Assembly (NCBI GenBank): GCA_021822495.1
Contig: JAKAQO010000001.1
Span: forward strand, 328,808 to 392,807
Length of the DNA: 64,000 nt
Source: a bacterium
GTDB lineage: Bacteria > Elusimicrobiota > Elusimicrobia > UBA1565 > UBA9628
Direction of reading: 5' to 3'
The notes under the pieces were generated by a model, which was given only the letters and a program-made list of their open reading frames with translations, searched no databases and was not told the origin of the DNA. Shown here piece by piece: positions 46,220-56,624 of this stretch. The translations under genes were made by a program, and so were the position numbers. Position 1 is the first letter of the stretch. Each line of letters starts with the position of its first letter.

Positions 46220-46438
46220 TTTTTCCCTTAAATGATTTTTTGCCTCTTGCGGGACCGAAACGCCCTTTTTAAGAGAACCCAACGCACCGATGGTTTTTTC
46301 GATAGTTTCCAGAAAAAGAACGCAGGGCCGGCATTCTTTCAGGTGGGATTTAAGCTTCGCTAAGGTTTTAAGGTCCAGGCTCCCGTCAACATAATCAGAC
46401 ATCTTGCGGGAAAGGCTCTTGCAATGAATATCTTTCAA
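46193..46438 (-). CDS. Zinc-finger (zf-HC2) anti-sigma factor
   Basis: 81 aa. The HC2 motif reads HLKECRPCVLF (H-x3-C-x2-C), with an upstream Cys in MKDIHC. No TM helix is present, so it is a short soluble regulator. It is encoded directly after the ECF sigma gene (4-nt overlap), which it probably controls. Confidence 0.75.
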   Translation of the reverse strand: MKDIHCKSLSRKMSDYVDGSLDLKTLAKLKSHLKECRPCVLFLETIEKTIGALGSLKKGVSVPQEAKNHLREKLKSVSRRG

Positions 46439-47016
46439 CTGACTTTTTCCTTAAATTCAAGTTCAAAACGCTCTCTTAAAAACATTCTTCCGCGATGAAG
46501 ACGAGATTTAACCGCGGGGACGCTGAGTTTCAAAATCTTGGCGGTCTCTTCCGCCGAGAGACCTTCAATATCCCGCAAAGTCAGAACCAGCCGATAATCC
46601 GCGGGAAGATCCGCTAAAGCCTTGGCCACCGCCTCCTGCAATTCTTTTTTTCTCGAAGCTTCCTCGGGGTTAGGAAACCAATCCTTAAACTCTAAAGGAC
46701 CGCCCTCCTCATCCGGGCGCCTGCGCTCCAAAAAGGACACCACGGGTTCCCGCTTTTTTTTACGAAAACGCACCCAGCAAAGATTGGCCGCGATGCGGTA
46801 AAGCCAGGTCCCCAAATTCGAACGGTTTTTAAAACCCTTGATATTTTTAAACGCCGAGAGAAAAGTTTCTTGATAGACGTCTTCCGCGTCTGAAGGCATG
46901 CCAGCGCAAACGTGATGGGCTAGGCTAAAGATTTTATTTTCGTAATTGCGAATAAGCTGGGAAAAAGCTTCCACGTCCCCGGCTTTACTTTTTTCGATGA
47001 GTTCCGCTTCTTTCAT
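46435..47016 (-). CDS. ECF RNA polymerase sigma factor (RpoE-like)
   Basis: 193 aa. Region 2: DAEDVYQETFLSAFKNIKGF and LGTWLYRIAANLCWVRFRKK. Region 4: LADLPADYRLVLTLRDIEGLS, AEETAKILKLSVPAVKSRLH with RGRMFLRE. It pairs with the downstream zf-HC2 protein. Targets are unknown; genes with shared upstream motifs in this window are candidates. Confidence 0.9.
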   Translation of the reverse strand: MKEAELIEKSKAGDVEAFSQLIRNYENKIFSLAHHVCAGMPSDAEDVYQETFLSAFKNIKGFKNRSNLGTWLYRIAANLCWVRFRKKKREPVVSFLERRRPDEEGGPLEFKDWFPNPEEASRKKELQEAVAKALADLPADYRLVLTLRDIEGLSAEETAKILKLSVPAVKSRLHRGRMFLRERFELEFKEKVS

Positions 47017-48226: not shown

Positions 48227-49129
48227 TTACAAGTTTTTAATCGGGGATTTTTCTCTAGCGGCCAAATAAACCCCGGCCAAAATAAAAGCTCCACCTAATG
48301 AACTCCCCCAATTGAGGCCTTCTTTCAGGAGAAAAACTCCTAAAATAGCCCCCAACAAAGGCTGAATGAAAATAAAATTAGCCAGGAGAGAAGCCGAAAC
48401 CCGTTCCATGGCTAGATTCCAAGTTAGAACTCCCAAGAAAGAAACTCCCAAGGATAAATAAAGGATGGAGGCAAGGGTGATTTTGGAGTGAACAACCTTA
48501 AGAGACGGAAAATGAACCGCCATCGCGAAAAAAAGGAGTGGGAAGACGGCGGTCGTCGAGGTTAAAGAGGTCAAACTTAAGGCATCCATTTTTTTAAGCA
48601 AGGGTTTGCCGAGGATGGTATAAAGCGCAAATAAAACGCCTTGAGCGCAGAGAAGAGCGTCTCCCAAGGAGGAACCCCGGGAAGACTTAAGTAAATAAGC
48701 GAGGGAATGCCCCTGGGCCACGATCAAAAAAGATCCGATCAAACTCAAAACTAGGGCAAAAATTTTTAAGGCGGACAACTGTTCATCTAAGAAAACAGCG
48801 GATAAAAAGACAATCGCCACGGGTTCCAAAGCCATGAGTAAAGCCGCGTGGGTCGCGCTGGAAAGTTGCTGCCCCCAAGCCCCAATCCACAAGGGCGCGT
48901 CATATCCGATGACGGCGATTAAAAAAACTCTGACCCAATCGCGAAAGCTCAAATGATTCTTTTTGAAAAACCGAAAACAGAAAGGAAGAAAGAAAGGCCC
49001 CGCCAGCGCAACCCTCCAAAACACGACAGAAAAGGGAGAAAGACTTTTTAAAGCGTAGGCCGTGGCGACAAAGGAAGCCCCTCCCAGAGCGTTGGTGAGA
49101 AAAAGCAAAAAAAACGAACTGGCGCTCAT
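48227..49129 (-). CDS. EamA/DMT-family transporter
   Basis: 300 aa. Ten TM segments in two EamA repeats; the second half includes LTSLTSTTAVFPLLFFAMAV and LLANFIFIQPLLGAILGVFL. Exports or imports small metabolites; the substrate cannot be told. It lies 9 bp after the acyl-CoA dehydrogenase start on the same strand. Confidence 0.85.
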   Translation of the reverse strand: MSASSFFLLFLTNALGGASFVATAYALKSLSPFSVVFWRVALAGPFFLPFCFRFFKKNHLSFRDWVRVFLIAVIGYDAPLWIGAWGQQLSSATHAALLMALEPVAIVFLSAVFLDEQLSALKIFALVLSLIGSFLIVAQGHSLAYLLKSSRGSSLGDALLCAQGVLFALYTILGKPLLKKMDALSLTSLTSTTAVFPLLFFAMAVHFPSLKVVHSKITLASILYLSLGVSFLGVLTWNLAMERVSASLLANFIFIQPLLGAILGVFLLKEGLNWGSSLGGAFILAGVYLAAREKSPIKNL

Positions 49130-49147: not shown

Positions 49148-51442
49148 TTAGAGAGGCAGGCTCGGAGTCGGGGGCAGTTTAATGCCATGCTTTTGCGCCG
49201 CCGAGCGGATGAGCTCTTCGTGCAATATATTCCCATTTTTATCCATCGCGTTCAAAAGCGCATGGGCCATGGCCGAGGGAATATCGGGAATATATCCCAA
49301 AAGGATTGGAATCACGAGTTCTTCCGCAAGGGCTGCGCCTTCTTCTTTTCCCAAACGCTCGCTTAAGGATTTTCTCAAATCCCAGGCAAACCCCATCCAG
49401 GCCAGGCCTTGTTCATGAACCTCATCTTGAGGGTTAAACTGATAATCATTTTCTCCGCTCCGAATCCAGCTGGGATTTTGTTTTTTATAAAAACCCTCGC
49501 CGATCAAAGGGGTGTCTAGCATAAACATTAAAACAGTATCGCCCCAACCCTCGTTTAAGCCTTCATCCGAACGCATTCCCACGGGGTGATCCAAAACCGG
49601 AAGTTTATAAGAATACGAAAAATAAGCCCGCGCGCGCTTAAAGAGGCTCATAAAAAAACCGGACGGCGGATTATGAATCATATCGTCGGCCTTGTGCGTC
49701 ATTTCATGAAAAAAAACTCCTATCCGCCCCGTGTCAGAATATTCTTCGCTCTCACGGTCAGAATGAATGTCGCCACTCTCGGCGCTATACCAAGCGTTTC
49801 CAAATTCGGGGGAATTCACCCGAATCGTCGTGCGGTAATCCAGGCGATGATCGGAGTTTAAGCGTTTGCGCAGCCAAGCACGGTGCCGGGAATCGGCCAC
49901 ATAGGCGTTGACCTGATTGACGATCAAAGGATCCGAACCCTCCGGATTAAAGACTAGGACATTATCCGGGCCTCTCCGCAGCGTCCCGTTAATTTCAGCC
50001 GCGTCCCCATTTTCATTAACAACCTCGGTGAAAAGCCCGGATAATTTTGCCTTAACGGTCCCTTGCGGAGATTGAAGATCGGCGGAAAAACGCCCATTCT
50101 CATCGGTGGTATAGTCGCGGCCATCAATCGTCAAATGAAGAAACGGAAGGGGTTGGGGCGACAAGAGAATCTCCCCATTGGGGCGATGGTCGCTTAATTC
50201 CGCGCGCCCCAGCGCTTGGCCTTCGGCCTTGGGCGTTTCTCCTCGAAAATTTAAAGCTAAAGGATTCCGGTTTGTAGTAGCGGAGATTCTATGAGCGTTT
50301 TCTATTAAATCCGGCGGCAAACCCAAGGAACTAGCTCCTTGATTGTTCCAAATAAATATATCCCCATCGAACAGATCGGCCGCGATCGCCACGGGAAGAC
50401 CTTTTTTACGATAAAGATTAACAGCCCGCCAACGCCCGCGATATTCGATGACGGCTCTTCCTAAAAAACGAATCAAGGTTTCCGGGGAATCCGCATAGCG
50501 AGCCCGAATGGCCTCATTTAAATCTCGATCGCTTAAAACCGGTTTTTGCGGAAGAGAGACTTCATCGTAGAGATTAGAACGGAGAGAAATAAGAAAGGCT
50601 CTTCCGTTAATCACTTTAATGGTCGCCGCCACATAGGCCCCCCAAACAGGCAAAGACATTGAATTTCCGAAATGACTCATAACGTCTTTTTTTTGACGAA
50701 AATAAGCGTAAATGGTATCAGCCCGATGAGGAGCCCCAGCAACCGCCGTCACATACACCGTCGCCAAATCCGAGCTTGAAAGCCCGAGACTCCCTTTATG
50801 AAGATCGATTTTCTCGCGCAAGATTTTTTCAACAGCGAATTCATCCTTGGGATTGACTTGAAGTTCTATCGGATGAGCGAGAAATCCTTCTTTCTCTCCC
50901 TCTTCCCCCAACAAATTCTGTCGCGCTTCCGTTTCAGGAGAAAAAACAATTTCCGAGGGAGTTTTCTCCGAAGCGTCCGAAGGAATATCCAAAGTCTTCG
51001 GGAAATTCTGGGGCAATAAGTTCTCGGAAGGCCCCCCCCCATCAAAAAAACAGGAAAAGGGGACAGTCCCCTTTTCCTTCACAAAAAGGGGACTGTCCCC
51101 TTTTCCCGCCCGTAAGAAAAATTTCTTAACCTTAAGCCCCCAAGGCTTGATTTTCTGAATGCGTTGTTGAAAAAAACCAGCAAAATTTAATGCCTCTTCT
51201 CTTGGCAAGAGGTTCGGGGCGGTGTTTTTATTAGGAGGCAAAGCGGCTTCATTTAAATGAGGCAGATTTTCTTCTATTGAGCCCAAGGGTGGGGAATCAG
51301 AAATAGAACCTGGAGGCGCCGCTTGAACAGATTGGAAAGGAGCGGAAAAGTCTTTAAAAACCTCCGCCGCACGAGATACGGAAGAATTCAGTAAAAAGAA
51401 AAAAGAAAGCGCAAGGGAAAACCCTTGCGCTTTTCTCGTCAC
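49148..51442 (-). CDS. Secreted fungalysin-like metalloprotease, copy 1
   Basis: 764 aa, GTG start at 51442. Signal peptide MTRKAQGFSLALSFFFLLNS. Low-complexity head, then an FTP-like propeptide (about 200-330), a beta-rich Gly/Asp section and the M36-like catalytic part: HEMTHKADDM near residue 578 and EGWGDTVLMFM near 630, the HExxH and EGxGD elements of gluzincins. YQFNPQDEVHEQGLAWMG is shared with the second copy. Two GGGGACAGTCCCC elements interrupt the head in frame, and a terminator hairpin covers codons 4-13. Confidence 0.75.
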   Translation of the reverse strand: MTRKAQGFSLALSFFFLLNSSVSRAAEVFKDFSAPFQSVQAAPPGSISDSPPLGSIEENLPHLNEAALPPNKNTAPNLLPREEALNFAGFFQQRIQKIKPWGLKVKKFFLRAGKGDSPLFVKEKGTVPFSCFFDGGGPSENLLPQNFPKTLDIPSDASEKTPSEIVFSPETEARQNLLGEEGEKEGFLAHPIELQVNPKDEFAVEKILREKIDLHKGSLGLSSSDLATVYVTAVAGAPHRADTIYAYFRQKKDVMSHFGNSMSLPVWGAYVAATIKVINGRAFLISLRSNLYDEVSLPQKPVLSDRDLNEAIRARYADSPETLIRFLGRAVIEYRGRWRAVNLYRKKGLPVAIAADLFDGDIFIWNNQGASSLGLPPDLIENAHRISATTNRNPLALNFRGETPKAEGQALGRAELSDHRPNGEILLSPQPLPFLHLTIDGRDYTTDENGRFSADLQSPQGTVKAKLSGLFTEVVNENGDAAEINGTLRRGPDNVLVFNPEGSDPLIVNQVNAYVADSRHRAWLRKRLNSDHRLDYRTTIRVNSPEFGNAWYSAESGDIHSDRESEEYSDTGRIGVFFHEMTHKADDMIHNPPSGFFMSLFKRARAYFSYSYKLPVLDHPVGMRSDEGLNEGWGDTVLMFMLDTPLIGEGFYKKQNPSWIRSGENDYQFNPQDEVHEQGLAWMGFAWDLRKSLSERLGKEEGAALAEELVIPILLGYIPDIPSAMAHALLNAMDKNGNILHEELIRSAAQKHGIKLPPTPSLPL
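51059..51071. repeat. GGGGACAGTCCCC element in protease gene (copy a)
   Basis: In-frame copy giving KGTVPFSCF on the minus strand. It lies in opposite orientation to the next copy, 16 bp away, so the pair forms a larger inverted structure. Confidence 0.85.
51088..51100. repeat. GGGGACTGTCCCC element in protease gene (copy b)
   Basis: In-frame copy giving GKGDSPLFVKE on the minus strand. Together with copy a it adds about 18 codons to the low-complexity head of the protein without breaking the frame. Confidence 0.85.
51391..51434 (-). terminator. Intrinsic terminator hairpin inside the start of the copy 1 protease gene
   Basis: On the minus strand AAAGCGCAAGGG, loop TTTT, CCCTTGCGCTTT gives a perfect 12-bp stem, followed by TTTCTTTTTTC. 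It lies 33 bp after the stop of the upstream protease gene (51467) and covers codons 4-13 of the next gene, starting 8 bases after its GTG start. Confidence 0.75.
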
Positions 51443-51466
51443 TGCTTTTATATCCTTATTATTTGA

Positions 51467-53962
51467 TTAAGCCGAAGGAGCTTGCCCTTGAGATTCCGGA
51501 ATCGTCATCCCATGCTTAGCCGCGGCCTGCTGCAAGGTCTTCATCGCCGTTGATTGAACTGCGGCGTCGGTCAACGATTTGGCCGCCAGATAAATGACGC
51601 TTAAGGCCGCTGGAACATCGGCGGCGTTGGCGTAGCCATAGATATGCGGGAAGATAAGGCCCTGAATTAAAGACAGCGCCTTGTCTTTTCCCAAGGCGTC
51701 TCCCAGAAGAGAGTGCCAAGCCCCGCCGTATCCGACCGTTCCCATGAAAGCCAACCCCTGGGTATGGACCTCGTCTTGAGGGTTGAACTGATAATTATTC
51801 GTCGTCTCACGTAAAGCCCCGCCCGGAACATTCGGAAGAGGAGATTGAGCCGGATCATTAAAGAAATGTTCCCCAATGAACGGGGTTGATAAGATATGAG
51901 TCGCGAACATATCGCCGATGCCTTCCCCTAAACCCGGATCCACCGAGGCCATGGCGTTAAGGCCCAAGTGGGCATAGCTGGCCACCAGGGCATGGGTCCA
52001 ATGACCGCTTTCATGAAAACCGACCCCGGGAAGAGTCCCGGTATTGATGCACTGCGCGCTGGATAAAAAGAAATTAAGAGTATTTGAGGATGGATCGTAA
52101 TAAGCGTTACACTCATCCGCGATATTGACGTTGATGGTCAATTTCTGTTTGAGAAGACCGTCTTTTTCGCCAACGCCGTGGGCCATCGCCCAATTGATAA
52201 AGGTGTAGTGGCTGTAATAAGCGGTCACCTGCGCCAATTCTTTCTCAGATTCGGCGCGGGCTTGATTGGCGGCGTTTTCCTGGGCGCGGTAAGAAGGAGA
52301 AAAGAAATGTTTAAAGGTTTGAACAATCTTCCCCCAGAGAGTAGGCTTAGAAGCCGGGGTCGTGGGACCCGTCGCGCTGCTGGGCGGGTTAAAAACAACC
52401 ACGGCGCCGTCTTTTCCTTGAATGAGTTTTGCCTTGACCACCAAGGCCGATCCCGCTTCATTATTGATCATGACATGATCGCTTTCAAGTCTCGCGGTTA
52501 CGTCCATGGGTTGATTGCTGGCCAGATCAACATTGACCCGTCCCTCATCATCGGCCTTAACTTCGCGTCCATCCGGAAGAGTGACCGTGACTCCCGGCAA
52601 AGGCAACTGATGAAGAGTGGGAGGAGTTCCCATATCGTTATCGGAGGTTGGAACGCGGGCTTCAAACTGCGCCGAAGCCGAGACGTTGGCCGGAGGTCCG
52701 GTCGTGGGAGAAGCCGCGCCCAAGCGCATATCCCATAAGAAAGTCTCTCCGGTCGCGACATCGGCGGCAACTAAGGCGTCAATGCCTTCTACTTTATAGA
52801 GACTAATCGCATGCCAAGCCCCGCCTTTCCCGGAAGAAGAGGGAACATAGAAAATCTGCCGATCGCGGAATGAAATCTTGGCCCCCGCATCATTTCTAAG
52901 CTTGAGCCGATTTTTGATTTTGCTTTCCAAAATCGCGTCGTTGAACTTAGAAGAAACGTCAACCTTGAGTTTCGGAAAAAGTCGTCCATGAACGCCGACA
53001 ATCACGGCTTTCCCGTCTTTCACATGGATCGTAAAATTAAGAGAAGCGCCGTAAACCGGAAGCGGGGTTGACTTCCCATCTGTGTACTGTTGATGGAAAG
53101 AGACGTACCAGGTTGGAAGTTGCCCGGGGACTTCGGTCAAATGAAGCTGGGAAGTTCCCAAATCTGCGCTTTTGACTTTGTATTGAGGATGAGAGTCAAT
53201 CATCTCGCGGACCGCGCGTTCGATATCGGCGGCGTTTTGCGGATTGGCCTCAAGAGGAATGTCCACCAGGCGATCGACAACCTGAACCCCCGGAGCGGCG
53301 GCTTCGGTTACGGGCTCTTCCGTCGCGGAAACGACATTTAAAGACTGACGGAATTCCGGTTGCTCTCGAAAATCCGGGATAATGGGGCCAGCATCGGTTT
53401 TGACTCCTTTCGGGAGTTTAAGTTTCGGAAGCGGACGAATAGACGGCGCGAAGGCGGAAAACCCAAGACCGGCAAGGCGTGATTGGTTTTGAGAACCGTC
53501 AAAAAACCGCGCGCCGATTTCTTTTAGATGAGAGCGAATAAAGGCGGCGAAATTGCTTAAGGATTTTGCTCCCGCAATCTCGGTAGACTGCGCCGCGATG
53601 GAAACGTTGGCATGAGATAGACTTTGTCCCGCCTGCTCATGATTGTGGCCAGAAACGCTTTTGGCCGTCTCTGCGCTCTGGGAATTGGGGGCTGTCCCCA
53701 ACTTCTCACGCGCGGAAATCTGGTCTTGAATCGCGCCAAGAGAGTCTTCAAATTGAAGAGATTCCTGCATCCCCTCGGAGGGTAAGGAGAGAGCGTTTTC
53801 TTGGCCACCAATCCCTTCTAAAGGAAGATTCGACAAATGGACGGGCGCGACATCTCTTCCCGCATTTCCAAGCTCAATTACGCCCCCAGCCCAAACGGAA
53901 CCAAAACTCGAAGACAACAAAACGCTGAGGGAAAGCAAACTACTGATTATTTTTTTATTCAT
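51467..53962 (-). CDS. Secreted fungalysin-like metalloprotease, copy 2
   Basis: 831 aa. Signal peptide MNKKIISSLLSLSVLLSSSF ending near VWAGG. FTP-like propeptide between about residues 230 and 400, a predicted beta-sandwich insert, then the catalytic motif GFHESGHWTHALV near residue 649 with GEGIGDMFATHIL near 680, then NNYQFNPQDEVHTQGLAFMG. Zinc gluzincin of the M36-like type, secreted or surface-bound. It has its own leader with motif copy C. Confidence 0.8.
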   Translation of the reverse strand: MNKKIISSLLSLSVLLSSSFGSVWAGGVIELGNAGRDVAPVHLSNLPLEGIGGQENALSLPSEGMQESLQFEDSLGAIQDQISAREKLGTAPNSQSAETAKSVSGHNHEQAGQSLSHANVSIAAQSTEIAGAKSLSNFAAFIRSHLKEIGARFFDGSQNQSRLAGLGFSAFAPSIRPLPKLKLPKGVKTDAGPIIPDFREQPEFRQSLNVVSATEEPVTEAAAPGVQVVDRLVDIPLEANPQNAADIERAVREMIDSHPQYKVKSADLGTSQLHLTEVPGQLPTWYVSFHQQYTDGKSTPLPVYGASLNFTIHVKDGKAVIVGVHGRLFPKLKVDVSSKFNDAILESKIKNRLKLRNDAGAKISFRDRQIFYVPSSSGKGGAWHAISLYKVEGIDALVAADVATGETFLWDMRLGAASPTTGPPANVSASAQFEARVPTSDNDMGTPPTLHQLPLPGVTVTLPDGREVKADDEGRVNVDLASNQPMDVTARLESDHVMINNEAGSALVVKAKLIQGKDGAVVVFNPPSSATGPTTPASKPTLWGKIVQTFKHFFSPSYRAQENAANQARAESEKELAQVTAYYSHYTFINWAMAHGVGEKDGLLKQKLTINVNIADECNAYYDPSSNTLNFFLSSAQCINTGTLPGVGFHESGHWTHALVASYAHLGLNAMASVDPGLGEGIGDMFATHILSTPFIGEHFFNDPAQSPLPNVPGGALRETTNNYQFNPQDEVHTQGLAFMGTVGYGGAWHSLLGDALGKDKALSLIQGLIFPHIYGYANAADVPAALSVIYLAAKSLTDAAVQSTAMKTLQQAAAKHGMTIPESQGQAPSA
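53685..53701. repeat. Variant GGGGGCTGTCCCC element in protease gene
   Basis: TTGGGGGCTGTCCCCAA, a one-base variant of the 13-mer with its own flanks, in the copy 2 protease gene. In frame it encodes LGTAPNSQ, replacing the usual GTVPFS. Confidence 0.5.
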
Positions 53963-54089: not shown

Positions 54090-56588
54090 TCACCGCGCGG
54101 CATGGCCCGAGGAAGAATCTCCGCCGGCAACCAGAGCCCCGCTTCCACTTGGAAACGAGGGAGAGGACGGAAGATCGAGCCCGTGATCGTTTTTGGCGTG
54201 AGAGCGAATAATGGCCTCATGCGGAATCGTGCCGTCTTTAGCCATATCAGAAAGCATCGCGTGGGTCAAGGCGCTGACCGGATCGGAGGGCTGGGCGTAA
54301 AGAGACGTCAAGACAAAAATAAGAGCGGAGCGCAAAGCGCCTTCCACATCCCCCATCGCGGCCATGATGTCCTTGCGGCTCATCCACGCCGTTCCCATTT
54401 GAGTTTCCCCCTGATTATGGGGATCGGAATTTTTGGGATCATAGGCGGTTTTATTTTCGCCGGTCCGGATGATAGTCGGCATTCCCGGAAGAGGGTTTAA
54501 AATGAAGCCGTTTCCGATCACCGGGCTATTTCTCATGAACATCGAAATGGTGTCCGCCGTCGCTTCATTGGAGCCGGAGCCCATCACGGGGTCAATCGGG
54601 TGTTTGACAAAGCGATAGGCCGGAGCGTTTGCTTCCTCGGAAGTCAAATTAAGTTGCGAGGCTCTCTGAACAAAACGGTGCCCCAATTCATGGAGCGAGA
54701 TGGAGGGTTGGGAGGTGTTTTCAAAGGTCACGAGAACAGTCTTTACCTGACCGTCTTTCCCGCGAATTTTTTCAGGAAGCGTCGCTTTTTTCATTAAATA
54801 GAAGCCATCGGTCATGGGGTCATAATCGGCGTTTCCCGGCAGGCTGGTCCCATTGGTATGAATAGAGCCGGCCAAAGGCGTATAAAATCTCGGATCGGAC
54901 AAGCCGAGATAGGACTTAAACCAGTTGAAAAGCCGGTAGGAATAAACGTAAGCGTTAACGCTGGCCGCCTGTTGTTCATCCTCCCCGGTCGGGTTTAAAG
55001 TCACGCGAACAGTTTCTCCGGGATTGACGGTTAAGTTGGCGACAATCGGCGAATCGGAAGAATCATCATCAATGACCGGCCCATAAATTCCGTCCAAGCG
55101 CACGGTAATGGCCAAGGGTTTCCCGCCATTCACATCAGCGGGAATCGTGAAATTTCCGTTTTCATCGGTCACCGCCAACACATGACCTTGAGAATCAAAA
55201 ACTTTTGCGTTAGGCAAAGCCATTTCCCCAATTGGACCATGGTCTTCCCCATCCGCTGTGAGCGTCGTACCCCGTCCAACCGCCGTGCCGGAAAGAGAAT
55301 TATTAGAAGCGGTCAGACGATGATTGAGAATCCCGTCCGAACCCAAAGGAAACGCTTCCCCGGTCTTAACGTCAACCAAGATCATCTCTTGTCCGCCGGT
55401 CAGAGAAGTTCCCTGATAAATATTGACCGCGCGCCAGGAATTTGAAAAATAGACAATTTCGCGAGCCATGAGCGCCACCTGCGGAGTCGCGCTCAGCAAA
55501 CTTAAATGTCCCGGAGTTTTAGGGCGAATGACGTTATCAGTGGAATTTCCTCCATTGGGTTTTTCGGAAGACAGTTGTTTTTGAGCGATTTCTTCCAGCT
55601 GGGAATCGTTATAGCCCGGCTTCATAATCGCCGGATCGATTTCAGGAGCGAAACCGCCTTCAACGCCCATTACCACCGGCTTTCCGTTTAAAACCTTAAT
55701 ATGGAAACGCAAATCCGCGCCGTCCACCAGCAGATAATAAGGAGAGCCGTCTAAATCCGTCCCTTTTTGCCATTGTCTGAAAACCGCGATAACGCTGTCA
55801 GCTTGATCGGCTTGTCCTGATAATTTAACCACATGAACCGTCGCCATCTGATCGCTCGGCTTTCCATATTGAGAAGACAGTCCGTATTTTGCGGGGTTTG
55901 AATCCACCTCCGCCCGCAAGGCTTGTTCGATGGAAGCCATGTCCGCCGGATTGGCATTGAGAACAACCGGTTTTTCTCCTTCCGGTGTAGTCGAATTCGC
56001 GGAAAGATGAAACTGCTTAAGCGCAACCAGGCCATTTTTCGCGGGCTCCAGCAAAAACCGGCGTTCGGCAAAAGAAGCGGGGGCTTCGTTCTGCCAAGGC
56101 TTGCGGCGAACGCCCAGAGAAAACTGGCCCGCAAAAGCCTGTCCATCAAAATTGACCTTCGCGCGCGAAGGCGTAGAAATTCCGCGCCCTAAAAATTTTT
56201 TCAGGCGCTTGAAAATTTTTGAAAGCGGCCTGGACTGAGACGAGGCCTGGTCTTTTCTTTCTAAGAAGGAAAACCCCACGCCATCTTCCGCCGTCGGATT
56301 TTTAGAAGCCGCTTTCAAAACCTCCGCGGTTTTCTCCTCTTGGGAAACCGGTAATGATTCAAGCGCGGAGACGGAAATCAAATTGGCCGGCAAATCTTCT
56401 CCTGGATTTAAAAGATTGACGGAATTTTGAGCTGAAAAATCAAGCGGCGAAACCACAACGGGCGAAATAATCTCAGGAGCGTTTGAGATTTCACCTCGAG
56501 CGCCAAGGCCGGCGAAAGCGGGGCTCAAGGAAGAAAGAATTAAAGATAAAGATAACGAAGAGCTTAAAAGTCTTTTTTGATTTTTCAT
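54090..56588 (-). CDS. Secreted fungalysin-like metalloprotease, copy 3
   Basis: 832 aa from ATG 56588 (MKNQKRLLSSSLSLSLILSS, signal peptide ending near AFA). FTP-like propeptide (about 205-345), then Gly/Asp-rich beta domain with LTADGEDHGPIGEMALPNAK, and the catalytic motif SLHELGHRFVQRAS near residue 632, with NEATADTISMFM downstream in place of EGxGD. The start at 56624 is in the motif B region and is not used. It is the first gene of the tandem trio. Confidence 0.78.
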   Translation of the reverse strand: MKNQKRLLSSSLSLSLILSSLSPAFAGLGARGEISNAPEIISPVVVSPLDFSAQNSVNLLNPGEDLPANLISVSALESLPVSQEEKTAEVLKAASKNPTAEDGVGFSFLERKDQASSQSRPLSKIFKRLKKFLGRGISTPSRAKVNFDGQAFAGQFSLGVRRKPWQNEAPASFAERRFLLEPAKNGLVALKQFHLSANSTTPEGEKPVVLNANPADMASIEQALRAEVDSNPAKYGLSSQYGKPSDQMATVHVVKLSGQADQADSVIAVFRQWQKGTDLDGSPYYLLVDGADLRFHIKVLNGKPVVMGVEGGFAPEIDPAIMKPGYNDSQLEEIAQKQLSSEKPNGGNSTDNVIRPKTPGHLSLLSATPQVALMAREIVYFSNSWRAVNIYQGTSLTGGQEMILVDVKTGEAFPLGSDGILNHRLTASNNSLSGTAVGRGTTLTADGEDHGPIGEMALPNAKVFDSQGHVLAVTDENGNFTIPADVNGGKPLAITVRLDGIYGPVIDDDSSDSPIVANLTVNPGETVRVTLNPTGEDEQQAASVNAYVYSYRLFNWFKSYLGLSDPRFYTPLAGSIHTNGTSLPGNADYDPMTDGFYLMKKATLPEKIRGKDGQVKTVLVTFENTSQPSISLHELGHRFVQRASQLNLTSEEANAPAYRFVKHPIDPVMGSGSNEATADTISMFMRNSPVIGNGFILNPLPGMPTIIRTGENKTAYDPKNSDPHNQGETQMGTAWMSRKDIMAAMGDVEGALRSALIFVLTSLYAQPSDPVSALTHAMLSDMAKDGTIPHEAIIRSHAKNDHGLDLPSSPSFPSGSGALVAGGDSSSGHAAR

Positions 56589-56624
56589 ATTTCTTATTAT
56601 GCTCCTCTCAAAGCCCGAGCGCAT

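Follow-up and report, generated by a model that had tools for sequence, protein, structure and literature searches.

Intra-operon partial terminators and the frd-ampC terminator/attenuator let the terminator of one gene double as the attenuator of the next. In these systems the terminator lies in the leader of the next gene, whereas in the locus described here, at the start of a predicted protease gene (P3), the putative terminator lies past that gene's start codon. The closest experimentally tested counterpart is the lambda tR2 terminator of construct W48, placed 30 bp past the NinA start. Like the predicted terminator of P3, it sits a short way into the following ORF, and it works despite a functional start upstream (PMC4824070). 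That case is a reporter construct, however, while the P3 hairpin belongs to a chromosomal gene block, is conserved across a genus and occupies the signal-peptide codons of a long gene. More generally in E. coli, ribosomes leave terminators fully active if these lie beyond about 27-30 nt from a stop codon or inside the opening 100 bp of a gene. One sited 30 bp past a start codon still works because a ribosome that has just initiated will probably not reach RNA polymerase over a distance of ~100 bp (PMC4824070).

The pyrBI-type attenuators of E. coli likewise place a terminator within translated codons ahead of structural genes, using a dedicated leader peptide; like the amino-acid leaders, they rely on programmed pauses (PMC4824070). 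The P3 locus is not pyrBI-type in anatomy, because no leader peptide was found: the ORF that bears the hairpin is the 764-codon structural gene itself. The bifunctional hairpins proposed by Naville and Gautheret would both terminate transcription and hide a translation start, as the P3 hairpin could, but in their candidates the hairpin comes before the start codon, and at P3 it comes after; by their account, no case of a bifunctional terminator that sequesters a ribosome-binding site had been shown by 2010 (PMC2965389). A full-text literature search returned nothing on transcription termination in Elusimicrobiota, the little-known phylum to which the bacterium studied here belongs.

The protease gene block and its junction hairpin

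The whole stretch of DNA analysed (the window) is 64,000 nucleotides long. Its features relevant to this study are, in the direction of transcription:

54090-56624, reverse strand: P1, first paralogue in the protease array
51467-53962, reverse strand: P2, predicted secreted metalloprotease with an HExxH motif and a signal peptide; its transcript is putatively ended by the hairpin
51453-51457, reverse strand: Shine-Dalgarno-like AAGGA, 10 nt 5' of the P3 start codon, kept in all four species compared
51440-51442, reverse strand: P3 start codon, GTG in all four species
51406-51433, reverse strand: terminator-like stem-loop in P3 codons 4-13, a perfect 12-bp stem (AAAGCGCAAGGG, TTTT loop, CCCTTGCGCTTT)
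51393-51405, reverse strand: U-tract CTTTTTTCTTTTT, which also encodes the hydrophobic core of P3's signal peptide
49148-51442, reverse strand: P3, predicted secreted metalloprotease (HEMTH, 764 codons) with the hairpin in its start region
48227-49129, reverse strand: EamA-family transporter, downstream of P3
47030-48217, reverse strand: acyl-CoA dehydrogenase-like gene, downstream
46435-47016, reverse strand: ECF sigma factor, final gene of the conserved downstream block

P1, P2 and P3 are paralogues, all predicted to be secreted metalloproteases with HExxH-like motifs, and the family has no match in Pfam, NCBIfam or PDB sequences. The order from P1 to the ECF sigma factor, together with the convergent neighbours, is retained wherever contigs of the same genus allow it to be followed. 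Scans for sigma-70-type sites, the only promoter class covered, found no such promoter near the P2-P3 junction; the genes after P3 may have promoters of their own and hence need not depend on readthrough of the hairpin.

The P2 stop codon (51467-51469, reverse strand) is separated from the P3 GTG by 24 nt that include the AAGGA, and the hairpin begins 33 nt past this stop, at nt 10 (codon 4) of P3. Seven of the 12 stem pairs are G-C, and the T-tract is found only on P3's own strand. The first-pass annotation had described a 12-bp stem with a TTTT loop and a T-rich tail, 33 bp past the P2 stop and in P3 codons 4-13, and all of these details were confirmed. The span it gave, 51391-51442, extends beyond the stem-loop proper (51406-51433) to the start codon on one side and the T-rich tail on the other. 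A misplaced P3 start was ruled out, since the conserved GTG is the sole ATG, GTG or TTG in frame on the way from the preceding in-frame stop to the hairpin, and yields an ordinary signal peptide like those of P1 and P2. Because the hairpin lies behind this GTG in each of the four species, every full-length P3 mRNA must be a readthrough product, as must anything cotranscribed behind P3, and no promoter 3' of the hairpin can yield P3 with its signal peptide.

Conservation within the genus

The window was compared with three other species of the same genus (L006, L007, L008); the contigs of a fourth genome (G001) end short of the junction. All three carry a hairpin at the equivalent spot, and the frame, the GTG and the AAGGA are kept. 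In the four species the stems are GC-rich and of 12, 15, 9 and 9 bp (at least 7 pairs being expected of an intrinsic terminator), each closed by a short loop of 4 nt. The region that follows is T-rich at the equivalent position throughout, with at least 6 T per 8 nt directly after the stem. The d'Aubenton-Carafa-type score is positive in all four (about 11 to 43, varying with stem trimming). The hairpin is placed as an attenuator would be, between promoter and bulk of the gene, and in each species the frame stays open throughout. Distances from the P2 stop to the hairpin are 33 nt in the window and 34, 35 and 35 nt in the others, which falls within the 5-45 nt seen for other terminator-like hairpins past stop codons in these genomes. 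Measured from the P3 start, its first nucleotide is 10-13 nt in, or at nt 7 for the longest stem in G003. A canonical terminator signal within signal-peptide codons, as first proposed, is supported and is conserved in the genus.

Variation is concentrated in the loop, where 4 of 4 columns vary against 5 of 24 in the arms (Fisher p 0.006), and each species keeps at least 11 of the 12 arm pairs. Eight pairs are invariant, one has undergone a compensatory change (A-U to G-C), two have changed to G-U, and the last is disrupted in G002 and G004 by a C-U mismatch that cuts their core stem to 9 bp. The covariation test is by itself not decisive, as 89 of 500 shuffles reach the observed score on four closely related sequences. 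Because such shuffle controls cannot prove covariation, the argument leans on three lines taken jointly, namely the loop-arm contrast, the synonymous null in each species (see below) and the constant position, which together suggest that the structure has been conserved. The 28-bp palindrome at the P3 start might instead be a DNA operator bound by a repressor or activator; it is long, perfect and single-copy in the genome. Its half-sites vary between species, however (GCGCAAGGG vs GCGCGGGGG), while RNA pairing, including G-U pairs, persists; the T-tract is confined to one side and one strand, and no sigma-70-like promoter site is nearby, so that an operator appears very unlikely.

The encoded peptide differs among species (KAQGFSLALS, KAQGRLLALS, NARGKTLALS) and the inverted repeat stays. 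Relatives with the same peptide and no repeat, which the first-pass annotation had named as the case that would count against it, were not encountered. The synonymous-site conservation to be expected of such an element is also seen: between the window and L007, 5 of 6 hairpin codons are identical at synonymous positions, against 97 of 254 in the rest of P3 (p 0.036). Outside the genus but within the same family, 20 loci that carry protease homologues show no comparable hairpin at the gene starts covered, some starts being cut off or outside the scan. The sole P1-P2 tandem among these loci (G008) has no P3 behind it.

Chance, coding constraint and other hairpins

The minimum free energy (MFE) of 51391-51442 (reverse strand) is -23.8 kcal/mol (z -5.85), a value reached in none of 200 shuffles. 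For a null that preserves the protein, the same peptide was encoded with codons redrawn according to genome codon usage, giving 20,000 codings for the stem and 3,000 for the MFE. Stems as long as that of the window arose in 73 of the 20,000 codings, and no coding of the 3,000 had so low an MFE; for the other three species the observed stem was reached in 4, 249 and 376 per 20,000, and across all four the observed MFE was reached in 0-2 per 3,000. These figures bear on whether the peptide and codon preference could give a functionless inverted repeat as a by-product. The species are few and related, and the motif A-x-G-x-x-L-A-L-S-F is itself conserved, which would favour such an origin. Yet synonymous codings are so seldom as stable in any of the four, and the arms are conserved although loop codons change residue, that a by-product is most improbable.

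No second copy of the hairpin within 3 mismatches was found in the 2.2-Mb genome, and membership in a repeat family was rejected on this basis. Matches to Rfam were all sub-threshold, none being above the gathering score, and the hairpin was not assigned to a known RNA family. A strict terminator filter passed 19 hairpins in a 464-kb sample and still passed 10 after one first-order Markov shuffle, and is therefore unspecific when used alone; the P3-start hairpin is among the strongest of those behind stop codons. In ~864 kb scanned, one other such hairpin lies in a plausible gene start right behind another gene (sucD/GT87) and is not conserved, and with this single other case a general habit of the genome was rejected. 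These genome-wide statistics rest on samples, with start codons elsewhere called by a simple script, and the counts are accordingly approximate.

The second hairpin (L044 13446-13476, i.e. contig C4:302253-302283, reverse strand) has a 14-bp stem followed by CTTCTTTTTG and is located behind sucD. Its score is weak. It lies in a possible gene start, where it occupies codons 8-18 of a membrane ORF that is GT87-like and begins with TTG. The ORF was not found in the four other genomes of the genus, and no such hairpin is found behind their sucD.

Within P3, at 51052-51103 (reverse strand), a palindrome (AAAAGGGGACAGTCCCCTTTT) occurs twice in head-to-head orientation; its in-frame reading is KGDSPLFVKEKGTVPFSCF, and a T-run follows. 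These palindromes are missing in G002 and G004, and G003 has an assembly gap (Ns) there. The AAAAGGGGACAGTCCCCTTTT repeat also occurs behind other genes (C4:265197, 389126, 389262, 499648) and behind sucD in G003, and for this reason looks like a mobile or REP-like palindrome able to enter coding sequence; it may itself be a terminator. In G004 (L117), sucD has an in-frame internal insertion of about 22 residues, perhaps another insertion of a repeat, and sucD of G002 (L118) has an assembly gap near the same place.

Proposed function and alternatives

Taken together, the sequence data favour the hairpin being a conserved intrinsic terminator that acts as an attenuator inside the gene block and lowers the output of P3 and later genes, to which a probability of roughly 0.62 is given. 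RNA polymerase leaving P2 would form the GC-rich hairpin and U-tract 33-35 nt past the stop codon, too far on for a ribosome completing P2 to interfere, and some of the polymerases would release there. The element would thereby set a step-down from P1-P2 to the later genes. The anatomy, its conservation and the start codon ahead of the hairpin are direct observations, from which we infer that the hairpin terminates transcription and how efficiently, that the block is cotranscribed and that translation is damped. The U-tract could partly reflect the Phe and Leu codons of the signal peptide. A full-length Rho is encoded in the genome (contig C2), so intrinsic terminators presumably need not be its main route of termination. 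A second Rho-like match (G000:C7:160536-161381) scores 343 bits, under the family cut-off.

The first-pass annotation went further and suggested that the hairpin is opened when ribosomes translate the start region. A ribosome initiating at the P3 GTG would hold the 5' arm open, and P3 would be transcribed only while translated, in a pyrBI-like manner. The P3 hairpin begins within the usual reach of an initiating ribosome; one already positioned at the GTG would overlap the 5' arm in part, making the idea sterically possible, and both Shine-Dalgarno sequence and GTG are conserved. A coupled ribosome is also able to suppress intrinsic terminators (PMC5021804; PMC7858274). Against this stand the E. 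coli data, where a terminator 30 bp past a start is active and the ribosome is unlikely to reach polymerase in the first 100 bp (PMC4824070). Antitermination would need a pause of RNA polymerase, and none was identified from the sequence; nor was a leader peptide or an antiterminator fold seen, the only alternative fold being a longer version of the same hairpin. Opening by a ribosome is kinetically unlikely without a pause, and while the terminator part of the proposal is supported, its antitermination part is not and seems improbable.

A terminator in this position would probably have a second effect. Because the hairpin starts so few codons into P3, it would hinder independent initiation on cut-off and readthrough RNA alike. 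P3 would then be translated mainly by ribosomes coming from P2, and ribosomes would be kept off a terminated message that has no stop codon. In the predicted readthrough RNA the pyrimidine tract pairs back onto the purine-rich start region, with pairing probabilities for the GTG of about 1.0, 0.7-0.95 and 0.7-0.9 in three species and 0.2-0.4 in G004. In the predicted terminated form the stem extends from nt 1-6 of P3 onward, and the start is open in some species. A tmRNA is present in the genome and would handle those ribosomes that do start on the terminated message.

The same predictions bear on whether the hairpin acts chiefly on translation or mRNA stability, as a block at the P3 start, an RNase site or a protected 3' end between P2 and P3. 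The GTG is paired (0.7-1.0) in three of the four species, and the first 60 nt at the P3 start fold at -25.0 kcal/mol, far under the mean of -10.6 (sd 4.5) for 283 sampled genes. A purely translational hairpin, however, needs no U-tract, and one is kept in all four species; pairing of the start is also weak in G004. A chiefly post-transcriptional role is consequently doubtful, and attenuation by termination remains the preferred reading. A further, quite unlikely reading is a self-gating start, in which termination is the default and is overridden only by ribosomes that come from P2 and reinitiate at the P3 GTG. Output of the later genes, including the ECF sigma factor, would then report the status of translation or secretion.

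Biological meaning

If the preferred reading is correct, a single conserved stretch of DNA serves as terminator signal, translation-start region and signal-peptide code. Terminated transcripts would have a start codon without a stop codon, and the arrangement therefore probes the ways in which non-stop messages are avoided or exploited by cells. Should the hairpin be functional, expression of the ECF sigma factor could hinge on readthrough at an upstream protease gene.
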